Below, one piece after another: positions 47,349-52,321 of a stretch of DNA of 64,000 nucleotides; the stretch's first letter is position 1; every line of letters starts with the position of its first letter. This stretch comes from Gordonia jacobaea (GTDB taxonomy: Bacteria > Actinomycetota > Actinomycetes > Mycobacteriales > Mycobacteriaceae). A program made the position numbers and the translations under genes. The notes below the pieces were generated by a model, which saw only the letters and a list, made by a program, of their open reading frames with translations, had not been told where the DNA came from and ran no database searches. The stretch is from the NCBI RefSeq assembly GCF_001186365.1, contig NZ_LDTZ01000017.1, positions 248,001 through 312,000 of the forward strand. Direction: 5' to 3'.

Positions 47349-47965
47349 CCGGTGGCGTCTGCGGGTCGTCGGCACGGGGCCAGTGCACCACATCGCAGCG
47401 TCGGGCGAGGGCAAAACTCAGACAGTGGCGGGTTACGCGGCGCGGCGAAGGCGAATCGCCGCGCATCAATCTTGTTGTTGCGCAGGTCACACCCACTGTT
47501 CACTGCGTTGTAGCGCAATGGTGGTTGTCACCCGCCCACAACACGCCCGGCTGTGAGTTTCCCAAGACACGCCGAGCCAAGAAAAGTTCTTCGTTGTGGA
47601 AATCGCACACAGCATCTGACCTGCGAAGATTGAGTTACACACACATCTACTCCCCAGCGTTCTCCACAGCGGCTGCACAACTGACACGCGGTTGCGCGCG
47701 CGCCGTCCACAGGCCATCCACAAGTTCGTCCACAAGCGCGTTTGAGTGCGACGAGACGAACTCCTACTGTCTTCCATCAGTGCCCGATGGTGTTGCGCGT
47801 CGCGATGTGCGGTCCGACCTGTCAGACCCCTCGGGTATGAACAAAGACGACTCAGCCAGTCAGGCTTCCGGGGGACGGCAGAGTCGTCAGCACACCGCCG
47901 TGTCGACGAGTTGACGGTTGGGGGGCCGTCCATCGTCAGGGTTCGATTTCGAAAGGTTGGCACAC
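47349..47965. other. 617-bp intergenic region before dnaB with DnaA-box-like sites
   Basis: No supported gene; short ORFs here have no conserved features. It holds a cluster of DnaA-box-like nonamers: TTCTCCACA (47660-47668), CCGTCCACA (47703-47711), CCATCCACA (47714-47722) and TCGTCCACA (47726-47734), all on the plus strand, and ATTTCCACA on the minus strand (47595-47603). Starts of the last three plus-strand sites are 11 and 12 bp apart, about one helical turn. The dnaB promoter should lie here too. Confidence 0.7.
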
Positions 47966-50200
47966 GTGGCAGTTGTCGATGATCGCGGCCACGGTGCGGC
48001 TCGGGATTCCGGACGACCAGACGAGCCAGACATGCCGGTCGAGGAATATGGCCGTCAACCGCCGCAAGACATGGCGGCGGAGCAGTCCGTTCTCGGCGGC
48101 ATGATGCTCTCGAAAGACGCGATCGCCGACGTCATCGAAAAGATCCGCACCAACGACTTCTACCGCCCGGCGCACCAGGCCGTCTACGAGGCGATCCTTG
48201 AGCTGTACGGCAAGGGCGAACCCGCCGACGCCGTCACGGTCGCCGCAGAACTCGAGCGCGCGGGCGAGCTGCGCCGCATCGGAGGCGCACCCTACCTGCA
48301 CACCCTCATCTCCACCGTGCCCACCGCGGCCAACGCCGGCTACTACGCCGAGATCGTCGCCGAGAAGGCCATTCTTCGACGCCTCGTCGAGGCTGGCACG
48401 CGCATCGTGCAGTTCGGCTACTCCGGTGCCGACGGTCAGGATGTCGCCGAGGTGGTCGACCGCGCACAGGCCGAGGTCTACGAGGTCACCGAGCGGCGTA
48501 CCGCCGAAGACTATGTGCCGCTCGAAGAGCTGCTGCAGCCGACGATGGACGAGATCGACTCCATCGCCTCCCGTGGTGGCATTTCGCTCGGTGTGCCAAC
48601 GGGTTTCGCCGACCTGGACAAGCTCACCAACGGACTGCACCCCGGGCAGATGATCATCGTGGCGGCCCGCCCGGGTGTCGGCAAAGCGCTCTCGCTCGAC
48701 ACTCCGCTACCGACCCCGACCGGCTGGACCACGATGGGCACGGTGAGCGTCGGCGACGAGCTCATCGATCCGCACGGTAGGCCGACGCGCGTTGTTGCCG
48801 CGACCGAGGTCATGACCGAGCGGCCGTGCTTCGAGGTGGAGTTCAGCGACGGCAGCGTGCTCGTCGCCGACGAACAGCACCAGTGGGTCGCAGAGATCGA
48901 CGACGAGCGCCGCACCCTCACCACCGCCGATCTGCGGGTGCACGTCGGGTGCGCCATGGTGCGCAACACCGAGCCACTCGAGTTGCCGCGCAAGAACTTT
49001 GCCTACGGTCCGTATACCGTTGCCGCACTTGCCGGAATGGCATTCGACGACCCCGAGATCGGCATCCGCATCGACGCCGAGGGCGACGTCGACGTCATGG
49101 CGCTGATGTCAGACCTCGGTGGTCGTATTCCGTATGAGTATCTGCGCGGGTCGATCGCCCAGCGTCGAGCACTGCTCGCCGGACTCCTCGATGCCCGCGC
49201 GAGCGTCGACGAGGACGGATGGATCATCGTTCCCGCCGCTACCCGACACATGACCGCCGTCATCGCCGACCTCGTCGCCGGACTCGGCTACACATACAAG
49301 AGGTCGGCCACCGGCTGGCTCCGCGTCGACACCGGCGACGACGATGTCTTCACCGTTTACCATAAAGCGTTGCGCCACAAGGAGCTTCGCATGCAGTCGG
49401 GAGTTCGACGCGTCGTCGCCGTTCGTCCGGTCCGTAGCGTCCCGGTGCGGTGCGTGCAGGTCGACAACGACGAGCACATGTACCTCGCTGGTGAGGCGAT
49501 GGTGCCGACGCACAATTCGACGCTCGCCATGGACTTCATCCGGTCGTGCTCGATCGGCCATCAGATGACGGCCGCGATGTTCTCCCTGGAAATGAGCAAG
49601 GTCGAGATCGTGATGCGACTCCTCTCGGCAGAAGCCAAGATCAAGCTCGGCGACATGCGTGGCGGTTCGATGTCTGACGACGACTGGACGCGCCTCGCAC
49701 GCCGAATGGGTGAGATCTCCGAGGCGCCGCTGTTCATCGACGACTCGCCGAACCTCACCATGATGGAGATTCGCGCCAAAGCTCGACGCCTCAAGCAGCG
49801 CCACGACCTGAAACTCGTTGTGGTGGACTACATGCAGCTGATGACGTCGGGCAAGAAGGTCGAGTCGCGTCAGCAGGAAGTCTCGGAGTTCAGCCGCCAA
49901 TTGAAGCTGCTCGCAAAGGAACTCGAGGTTCCCGTGGTCGCGATCAGCCAGCTGAACCGTGGTCCAGAACAGCGCACCGACAAGAAGCCGCAGGTGTCGG
50001 ACCTTCGTGAATCGGGATCGCTCGAGCAGGACGCCGACATGGTCATCCTGCTCCACCGTCCCGACGCGTTTGAACGCGACGACCCGCGCGCGGGTGAGGC
50101 CGACATCATCGTCGGCAAACACCGCAACGGTCCGACGGCGACGATAACCGTTGCGCACCAACTACATTTGAGCCGCTTCGTGGATATGGCGCGGGGGTAG
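47966..50200 (+). CDS. dnaB: replicative DNA helicase DnaB precursor with intein
   Basis: A 744-residue precursor starting at GTG 47966 after GAAAGG (10-bp spacing). The N-terminal domain (about 25-130, PPQDMAAEQSVLGGMML) and linker lead to the RecA-type ATPase, whose Walker A ARPGVGK/ST is split after K240 by a 277-residue intein. Downstream are Walker B LKLVVVDYMQLM, SQLNRGPEQR and a Q-D-A-D-M-V-I loop. Excision would give a mature helicase of about 467 residues, normal for DnaB. It unwinds DNA at the replication fork and is essential, so splicing must be efficient. Confidence 0.96.
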   Translation: MAVVDDRGHGAARDSGRPDEPDMPVEEYGRQPPQDMAAEQSVLGGMMLSKDAIADVIEKIRTNDFYRPAHQAVYEAILELYGKGEPADAVTVAAELERAGELRRIGGAPYLHTLISTVPTAANAGYYAEIVAEKAILRRLVEAGTRIVQFGYSGADGQDVAEVVDRAQAEVYEVTERRTAEDYVPLEELLQPTMDEIDSIASRGGISLGVPTGFADLDKLTNGLHPGQMIIVAARPGVGKALSLDTPLPTPTGWTTMGTVSVGDELIDPHGRPTRVVAATEVMTERPCFEVEFSDGSVLVADEQHQWVAEIDDERRTLTTADLRVHVGCAMVRNTEPLELPRKNFAYGPYTVAALAGMAFDDPEIGIRIDAEGDVDVMALMSDLGGRIPYEYLRGSIAQRRALLAGLLDARASVDEDGWIIVPAATRHMTAVIADLVAGLGYTYKRSATGWLRVDTGDDDVFTVYHKALRHKELRMQSGVRRVVAVRPVRSVPVRCVQVDNDEHMYLAGEAMVPTHNSTLAMDFIRSCSIGHQMTAAMFSLEMSKVEIVMRLLSAEAKIKLGDMRGGSMSDDDWTRLARRMGEISEAPLFIDDSPNLTMMEIRAKARRLKQRHDLKLVVVDYMQLMTSGKKVESRQQEVSEFSRQLKLLAKELEVPVVAISQLNRGPEQRTDKKPQVSDLRESGSLEQDADMVILLHRPDAFERDDPRAGEADIIVGKHRNGPTATITVAHQLHLSRFVDMARG
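48686..49516 (+). mobile_element. class 3 intein in DnaB P-loop
   Basis: In-frame intein of 277 residues (precursor 241-517). It begins with Ala1 (ALSLDTPLPTPTGWTTMG), not Cys or Ser. Block B is GSVLVADEQHQW with His at B10 and Trp67 at B12; block F has Cys256 (VRCVQVDNDEHMYLAG); block G is PTHN (Thr275-His276-Asn277), then extein Ser+1. The Trp-Cys-Thr set is diagnostic of class 3 inteins, where the block F Cys is the first nucleophile. The middle retains degenerate LAGLIDADG traces (LLAGLLDARASVDEDG), so the homing endonuclease is probably inactive. Confidence 0.92.
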
Positions 50201-50335: not shown

Positions 50336-50830
50336 ATGCCAGAGGTGGGGGCAATGCCACTCCCGAATATTTCGCTGCGCTCAGAGGACTCCTTGAAGGA
50401 ATCCTGCATTGAATGGGACCACGCCTCCCTTGAGCTGATCGGCAATGCGGTGCCGTGGCGGATGTTCCGTTGGCGCCACGGCCAGAAGCACTCGGGTACC
50501 TACTGGTCGGCGACCGACCAAGCGCACGTAGTCTACGAATCTCGATTAGAACTCACCCGACTTTTGTTCGCGGACTTCGATCCTGCGGTGAGTCGAATCA
50601 TTGCGCAGCCGTTCCTGATTCGTACCTCCATCGCGAAGCGTCCGCGCAGGCACGTGCCGGACTATCTGTTGTTGACAGACGATGGACCGGTGGTCGTTGA
50701 TGTGAAGCCGCGCACTCAGCTCGACCCGCTTGGGAGCGCTGTGGGGAGTGGGTCGGGTTTGGACTCCGTCAGGGCGCTGAGTGCAGTCATCGCGGAGGTC
50801 TCAATCGTTGCGATGTCATCGAGCAGCTGA
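50336..50830 (+). pseudogene. tnsA: truncated Tn7-like TnsA endonuclease gene
   Basis: A 164-residue frame whose first 132 residues match TnsA-like endonucleases: WRMFRWRHGQKHSGTYWSAT, HVVYESRLELTRLLFADFDP (catalytic Glu), RRHVPDYLLL (Asp) and VVVDVKPR (Lys). After KPR (near 50715) the family continuation is missing and the frame runs into antisense of the neighbouring BtrH-domain gene. No tnsB or tnsC is present. The catalytic residues remain, but the loss of the C-terminal part and partners indicates a decayed transposition module, broken by the adjacent insertion. Confidence 0.82.
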
Positions 50831-51801
50831 CTCGCTCTTGCGAGATGGTCCGGGCTACCCATAGCACCGGCCTTCTCGATGAGTTCCGCGACGCTCGTCC
50901 AGAGCAGCGCAGACTCGGCGAAGAGGTTCCTTCCTTGCTCTATGACGTCCGCGACCGGCTCACCTTCGAGTAGCCGCTGGCACTCGGTCAAGAAGTCGCG
51001 GTACAGGTTGCGGAACAGTGCGCCTCCGGTGCCCGCGCGTTCCATCAGGGTGGCGATGACGGCGAGGTCGCGGCTGGGATCTTCGACTCGATCGAACCAC
51101 GACTTCACGCGCTTGGCAGCTGTGCGGATTCCTCGGTTGCCGATGTTGGCGATCGGCGGCGCCAGGAAGTCCTCAGCGCATGCAGTAATCGCGGGGATGA
51201 TCGCGGGGATGAGGTGCCCGGCATCCGTGTTCGCCGCCGCCTTCACGGTGAAGGACCGGTGGCGGGCCGACATCGGCCCGCGTGCAGCTCGCGCCCTGGC
51301 CAGACTTTCCAGGCTGGTTGTCACGGCTCCGCCCTGCTGCGCGGTGTCGACCAGATGTGCCCGCTCGGTGTCGTAGCCGTACATGGCGACGACGTGACCG
51401 GCGAAGTGCACACGGGATCCGAAGTACTCCAGGTCATGGCTGTCGAGCTGAAGGCCTACGGGGCTCCCCTGGTCGATCGAGGAGCGGACCTGTTCCCAAG
51501 CCCTTCGCGCGGAGGTGGTCTCGTGTACGTGCAGTTCGAGCCCCAGTCGTTGCGTCAGGTTCTGGGTGAGCACGAAGGGCTTCACCCTGCCGCCCAGGAA
51601 GGGCAGCCCTTGCTGCTTCGAGTCCCAGTAGATGAAAGACAGCCCGCTGCCCAGCCCGAAGAGCATCGGTTCGGAGAGATCGATCCCGGCGCGGCTCAGA
51701 AGCACGCCGAGTGCTGTTGTCTCGCAATGCGCGCCGCCGACCGTGGTGACTCCGTCGATGATCGTCGTGTCGGGTGGCTTGGGCGTGGTCTGTTCACTCA
51801 T
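50716..51801 (-). CDS. BtrH N-terminal-domain protein
   Basis: A 361-residue protein. The N-terminal 170 residues fit the BtrH N-terminal domain (a papain-like acyltransferase fold): GGAHCETTALGVLLSRAG supplies a candidate catalytic Cys26, and HFAGHVVAMYGYD a candidate His. The C-terminal part is helical, like DUF4872. BtrH transfers an acyl group from a carrier protein in butirosin synthesis; related domains occur in peptide and lipid modification. Its start overlaps the padR stop by 8 bp. Its stop lies at the break in tnsA, so the two-gene module seems inserted there. Confidence 0.78.
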   Translation of the reverse strand: MSEQTTPKPPDTTIIDGVTTVGGAHCETTALGVLLSRAGIDLSEPMLFGLGSGLSFIYWDSKQQGLPFLGGRVKPFVLTQNLTQRLGLELHVHETTSARRAWEQVRSSIDQGSPVGLQLDSHDLEYFGSRVHFAGHVVAMYGYDTERAHLVDTAQQGGAVTTSLESLARARAARGPMSARHRSFTVKAAANTDAGHLIPAIIPAITACAEDFLAPPIANIGNRGIRTAAKRVKSWFDRVEDPSRDLAVIATLMERAGTGGALFRNLYRDFLTECQRLLEGEPVADVIEQGRNLFAESALLWTSVAELIEKAGAMGSPDHLARASQLLDDIATIETSAMTALSALTESKPDPLPTALPSGSS

Positions 51802-52321
51802 CGGGTACCTGGACTCGTTTGGCGAGCCACGACCTTTCCGCCTCCAGGAGGCTGAGGGAGTAGGAGAAGACTTCACGCGCTGGGTGCGGTAGGGGAGCTT
51901 GGATCCGCTGGGCTTCCATAACTGATGCGATCCTGGCCTCAAGCTGAGTCAGTCTGCTACGCAGCGCCTCGTCATAGGCACGCTTCGAGACCAGCGGCAA
52001 GTTGGCCAGGCCGACGAGGACCGGATGCGCGACCGCTCGAAGATCTGCGATGAACGCAACGGCTTCATCGACTGCCATTTGCCGCCCCTCCGCGGTGGCA
52101 TGGAACACCCGCCGAGACTTCGCGGCAGGACTGCCCTCAGCGGCCTCGACGAGGCCACGCTTCTCCAGCTTCGCGAGCACGTAATAGATGGATGAGAAGC
52201 CGATGTCCGTCCACTGTCGGATACCGCGCTGCTCGATCACCTGCTGCAGGTCGTAGCCGTGCCGGGGCTGCTCAACGATCAGGCCCAGCACCGTTAGTTC
52301 GGCAGGAGTCAGCACCCGCAT
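51794..52321 (-). CDS. PadR-family regulator of BtrH module
   Basis: A 175-residue PadR regulator with winged helix LTVLGLIVEQPRHGYDLQQVIEQRG, FSSIYYVLAKLEKRGLVEAAEG, RRVFHATAEGR and a C-terminal helical dimerisation domain of the Vir type. Translational overlap with the BtrH-domain gene indicates an autoregulated operon. A perfect palindrome touches its first codon. Confidence 0.9.
   Translation of the reverse strand: MRVLTPAELTVLGLIVEQPRHGYDLQQVIEQRGIRQWTDIGFSSIYYVLAKLEKRGLVEAAEGSPAAKSRRVFHATAEGRQMAVDEAVAFIADLRAVAHPVLVGLANLPLVSKRAYDEALRSRLTQLEARIASVMEAQRIQAPLPHPAREVFSYSLSLLEAERSWLAKRVQVPDE

Follow-up and report, generated by a model that had tools for sequence, protein, structure and literature searches.

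A class 3 intein with a conserved, apparently dead endonuclease domain in DnaB of Gordonia jacobaea

The dnaB gene of Gordonia jacobaea, located in a window of 64,000 nucleotides (positions 248,001 to 312,000 of contig NZ_LDTZ01000017.1), is interrupted within its P-loop by an insert that, judged from its sequence, belongs to the class 3 DnaB-b inteins, a known family in which redox control has a published precedent. The P-loop helicase intein is already known from mycobacteria; the part worth following is its endonuclease domain, which appears to be dead through loss of both catalytic acids and yet, by codon and identity measures, is constrained by purifying selection about as strongly as the splicing region. 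Such strict conservation of a catalytically dead domain suggests that the domain is needed for something. The initial annotation had called the LAGLIDADG domain degenerate and the intein, for that reason, probably fixed; it was right in that the catalytic acids are lost and the intein is fixed, but it missed the main point, the strong purifying selection acting on the domain. Our literature search found no paper on a Gordonia DnaB intein.

Position, class and distribution of the intein

The frame at 47918-50200 (+) encodes DnaB (Pfam DnaB_C, E 1e-95; DnaB, E 1.9e-34), whose translation, in our own reading of the sequence, more likely starts at GTG 47966, which is preceded by gaaagg, than at the TTG that opens the frame. 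The insert begins directly after PGVGK and stops directly before STLAMD, between the Lys and Ser of the DnaB P-loop, a site named DnaB-b in PMC6195587, and the boundaries proposed in the initial annotation are exact to the base. Just downstream of dnaB, frame 50336-50830 (+) gave a weak match to the N-terminal part of a TnsA-like endonuclease (E 3.6e-4, below the Pfam cut-off), and its end is overlapped on the opposite strand by frame 50716-51942 (-), with BtrH_N (E 6.3e-43) and DUF4872 (E 1.2e-42) domains.

Features of the dnaB locus of the window and of its predicted intein
Feature	Coordinates	Strand	Remark
dnaB precursor frame	47918..50200	+	ORF opens at TTG 47918
Predicted class 3 intein, 277 aa	48686..49516	+	between Walker A Lys and Ser, site DnaB-b
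N-terminal splicing region, residues 1-71	48686..48898	+	A1, C48, D62, H65, W67
Cys48	48827..48829	+	its DnaBi1 counterpart pairs with the catalytic Cys in a redox disulfide
Acid-less LAGLIDADG endonuclease region, residues 72-241 (170 aa)	48899..49408	+	conserved
Arg171	49196..49198	+	replaces the second catalytic Asp
C-terminal splicing region, residues 242-277	49409..49516	+	C256, T275, H276, N277
Cys256	49451..49453	+	block F nucleophile by homology
DnaB C-extein	49517..50200	+	first residue Ser+1; no second intein

The WCT triplet that defines class 3 (PMC6195587, PMC5050341) was found in blocks B, F and G as W67, C256 and T275, and position 1 is Ala, with no Cys, Ser or Thr nucleophile, so that the residue set named earlier is complete. 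Besides D62, H65, T275-H276-N277 and Ser+1, the intein carries two further cysteines, C48 and C89, absent from the initial annotation. Cys or Ser at position 1 had been named there as one of two observations that would refute the proposal; the residue is Ala in all 59 Gordonia inteins, across which all class 3 residues are unchanged, and in 189 of 189 rows of our intein comparison set (two overlapping collections, 145 unique). A phmmer search against the PDB placed 6bs8 (E 9.9e-40) and 6rix (E 1.1e-39) first, both of them class 3 DnaB inteins; the insert is therefore not a chance motif, and in both sequence and fold it lies nearest to these proven class 3 inteins. A Pfam search with the insert alone found no domain, and the TIGR01443 intein_Cterm model fits residues 253-277 at 14.4 bits, below its cut-off of 15.6.

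In solved orthologs, splicing is described as running through a Cys-His-Thr active site, where the block F Cys attacks, followed by transfer to Ser+1 and Asn cyclisation (PMC6195587, PMC7664689). By analogy, Cys256, helped by His65 and Thr275, would attack the Lys-Ala1 bond, the N-extein would be passed on to Ser+1 and Asn277 would cyclise, the Walker A motif becoming complete only afterwards. As the insertion site lies inside this motif, unspliced DnaB is without a complete Walker A; loss of ATPase activity in a P-loop precursor is argued in PMC6195587 by analogy with RadA.

All 59 Gordonia genomes searched (one per species, that of the window included) carry the intein, at a length of 276 aa in 55 and 277 aa in 4. 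The P-loop intein is therefore fixed in the genus as sampled; the DnaB-a intein, by contrast, is sporadic. The DnaB-a insert, which starts with Cys after SDLRESG like M. smegmatis DnaBi2, was seen in the DnaB C-extein of 10 of the 59 (L013, L018, L024, L027, L031, L033, L117, L124, L129, L138). Among the matches listed (80 kept of at least 582), the nearest named relatives are Gordonia sputi, with an intein protein 100% identical and surrounding DNA at 94-95%, and G. aichiensis, at 96%; of the genome loci, L258 was set aside because no junction was obtained. In a wider family sample, an intein match (E 1e-5) was obtained in 227 of 401 genomes and 23 of 31 genera; the weakest of these matches need not lie in DnaB. 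A precise empty site was present in 23 of 23 relatives examined, which represent 20 genera and were drawn from the 174 genomes (of 401) lacking an intein match; the junction reads GVGKST in 22 and GAGKST in one. In the comparison of relatives proposed as a check in the initial annotation, the site is occupied in all 59 Gordonia genomes, which bears out the view that the intein is fixed rather than mobile, and it is empty in all 23 intein-free relatives examined. One near genus has a different 278-aa DnaB-b intein in some species (L170, L175) and an empty site in four (L274-L277), which makes it a good place to study intein gain or loss.

The acid-less domain and the selection acting on it

Both catalytic acids are present in 26 of the 189 rows, all of them 304-417 aa long. 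In the Gordonia/Williamsia type the first acid is absent and Arg stands at the second position in 100 of 100 rows; the window intein has likewise lost both, one to Arg, in agreement with the degeneracy noted earlier, and therefore lacks the two catalytic acids that mark active LAGLIDADG homing endonucleases. The Arg is derived, because the second position is Asp in 76 of 80 viral relatives (80 kept of 270 matches). Five structure models of the intein were made (mean pLDDT 77.3 to 92.9) and the best was kept; in it the endonuclease region has a confidently predicted fold like that of PI-SceI, so that the LAGLIDADG fold appears to be retained and the intein, with 170 residues predicted as folded, is not a mini-intein devoid of an endonuclease domain. 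The strands that follow the LAGLIDADG helix face DNA in such enzymes; after the second helix they span 3-4 residues in the window model versus 5-8 in that of the acid-bearing Nocardia farcinica intein. The region carries a net charge that averages +6.8 in acid-bearing rows and -0.1 in the Gordonia/Williamsia type. Pfam LAGLIDADG_3 was recognised in the N. farcinica and N. takedensis inteins. Two acid-bearing inteins (L188 and L189, 404 and 417 aa) have a Cys-rich insert in the endonuclease region, at about residues 200-280, which in L188 gave a weak double-zinc-ribbon match (E 0.0037, below the cut-off).

The endonuclease region is nonetheless as conserved as the splicing region. Mean pairwise identity among Gordonia inteins is 0.77 in the endonuclease region versus 0.78 in the splicing region, while the corresponding values are 0.66 versus 0.81 for inteins with both acids and 0.49 versus 0.78 for other acid-less inteins. 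Codon omega, estimated under the GY model of IQ-TREE for 57 of the 59 Gordonia sequences (as sets of 28 and 29), agrees with identity, being as low in the linker as in the splicing region or lower; after identical rows were dropped, the Rhodococcus-type set went from 15 to 12 and the acid-bearing set from 26 to 25. Linker dS/dN is about 5.0 (mean dS 0.824, mean dN 0.164). At 26 linker positions, among them R171, H188 and W211, Gordonia/Williamsia have an almost invariant residue that few other family inteins share. Neutral decay of the linker is disfavoured by the codon and matched-divergence tests.

Intein and extein distances are moderately correlated (Mantel r 0.51, with 0 of 2000 permutations as high). 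The intein tree has 43 supported splits, of which 24 are also found in the extein tree and 14 contradict a split that has support there, so some dnaB allele exchange, or tree error, exists. Trees built from the whole intein or from the linker unite Gordonia/Williamsia in one clade (support 1.0), which was not recovered in the tree of the splicing region alone. In a few close pairs the inteins are more alike than the exteins; at its six lowest values the ratio of intein to extein nucleotide distance runs from 0.38 to 0.72. Recent spread or gene conversion as a general cause is unsupported, as dS in the linker (mean 0.82) is no lower than in the extein (0.69-0.77), and a nucleotide-level element hidden in the linker is unsupported on the same ground.

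Why a dead domain may have been kept

The best-supported reading, which we consider somewhat better than an even bet, is that a fixed class 3 intein has become reliant on the dead endonuclease scaffold for its splicing. In the Gordonia/Williamsia lineage, splicing would now require the folded scaffold, and damage there would therefore starve the cell of an essential helicase. Dependence of a splicing domain on its endonuclease has been discussed as HINT-HEN "mutualism" (PMC8966425). Against such dependence, omega in 10 Williamsia and near-genus sequences is only equal in the linker, not lower (0.058 versus 0.054 in the splicing region), the intein and extein trees disagree at the 14 of 43 splits given above, the lineage is missing from the splicing-region tree, mycobacterial DnaB-b mini-inteins are reported to splice without the domain (PMC6195587) and the dead HEN of PhoVMA is reported as dispensable (PMC8966425).

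Perhaps, as a bolder reading that we regard as doubtful, the dead endonuclease was co-opted and contacts DNA, a protein or a ligand, tuning DnaB splicing, or acts after excision. The 26 lineage-specific linker positions and the low linker omega would fit such a role, but newly conserved positions can equally reflect repacking of the core, no partner or pathway was seen, and the fall in net charge from +6.8 to -0.1 speaks against DNA binding, which is disfavoured as the kept function. Still less weight is given to the picture in which a selfish endonuclease was killed in Gordonia/Williamsia, rebuilt and kept as a non-catalytic domain controlling or required for helicase maturation; if this is true, a domesticated pseudo-endonuclease acts on DNA replication while still part of the intein that carries it.

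According to the homing-cycle model, the endonuclease of an intein decays after fixation and is then lost (PMC1654191, PMC3229294), and a Gordonia-wide intein with a dead yet selected endonuclease domain contrasts with such decay. That the domain is a neutral remnant on the way to a mini-intein is quite improbable: even though loss of both catalytic acids is what the model expects after fixation, length is constant and omega low over Gordonia, and a published yeast VMA pair with dead HENs gave a dS/dN of 0.67 for the HEN and 4.41 for the splicing domain (PMC1508164), compared with about 5.0 in the window-type linker. An endonuclease still active through an unusual active site is the least credible reading, for although the predicted fold is kept, all 100 Gordonia/Williamsia rows lack the motif 1 acid and carry Arg at motif 2, the strands behind the second helix are shorter than in the N. 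farcinica model (3-4 against 5-8 residues), and none of the 59 Gordonia genomes has an empty allele. Located in a replication gene that is essential, and in a genus that can be cultured, the intein offers a natural test of splicing dependence on an endonuclease scaffold versus host functions gained.

Cys48, redox control and known inteins

Redox coupling of DnaB splicing, proposed in the initial annotation, is plausible by analogy with DnaBi1, where a Cys48-Cys118 disulfide stops splicing (PMC6195587). The accompanying idea of splicing by a surface Cys does not hold for that ortholog, in which the equivalent Cys118, disulfide partner of Cys48, is described as central in the active site (PMC6195587). 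Cys48 and the block F Cys are both present in all 59 Gordonia inteins, that of the window included, and we hold it possible, though short of probable, that DnaB maturation responds to oxidants through a Cys48-Cys256 switch as in DnaBi1, which is compatible with the readings above. Over 125 residues the splicing region shares 62% identity with 6bs8 and superposes on it at 1.1 Å. Switching by H2O2 has been published for DnaBi1, and switching by reactive chlorine for M. smegmatis and M. leprae (PMC6195587, PMC8557812). Conservation was considered as proof of redox selection, and rejected. Cys48, described as non-conserved in the DnaBi1 paper (PMC6195587), is invariant in the 145 unique family inteins, yet it is also kept in 68 of 80 viral class 3 relatives (80 kept of 270 matches), so its presence does not demonstrate selection for a switch; moreover, every C48 mutant tried in DnaBi1 lost splicing (PMC6195587), the residue being required there for splicing itself, and its conservation alone is therefore no proof of a redox role. 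The invariance of Cys48 in the family bears on the reading of the published DnaBi1 switch.

The closest known systems are M. smegmatis DnaBi1 (6bs8; PMC6195587) and M. chimaera DnaB1 (6rix; PMC7664689), class 3 inteins at the same P-loop site, which have in common with the window intein A1, C48, D62, H65, W67, the block F Cys and Thr-His-Asn; the model superposes on them at 1.1-1.5 Å over 125-129 residues with 60-62% identity. Both are described as mini-inteins (139 and 145 aa) without an endonuclease domain, whereas the window intein keeps its 170-aa acid-less LAGLIDADG region. Acid-bearing DnaB-b inteins (Nocardia, Rhodococcoides, Saccharothrix and others) and phage P-loop class 3 inteins belong to the same family, with GK|A1 insertion, and C48 is found in all family rows and most viral ones; the acid-bearing relatives differ in keeping LGDG and LDTDG, in being more basic and longer (304-417 aa in family rows with both acids), and in being recognised by Pfam LAGLIDADG_3/Hom_end, which did not match the window intein. 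Many of the 80 viral relatives (L034-L113; 80 of 270) lie directly after a GK dipeptide in many different proteins and are followed by Ser or Thr, as in P-loops; several phage matches are annotated as terminase. Unlike the window intein, the PhoVMA intein with a degenerated HEN (7qst; PMC8966425) is class 1, begins with Cys1, resides in an archaeal VMA and is reported to splice without its HEN. Yeast VMA inteins with inactive HENs (PMC1508164) resemble the window intein as fixed-type inteins with dead LAGLIDADG domains, but in one published pair constraint on the dead HEN is weaker than on the splicing domain (dS/dN 0.67 versus 4.41), which is not so for the window-type linker.
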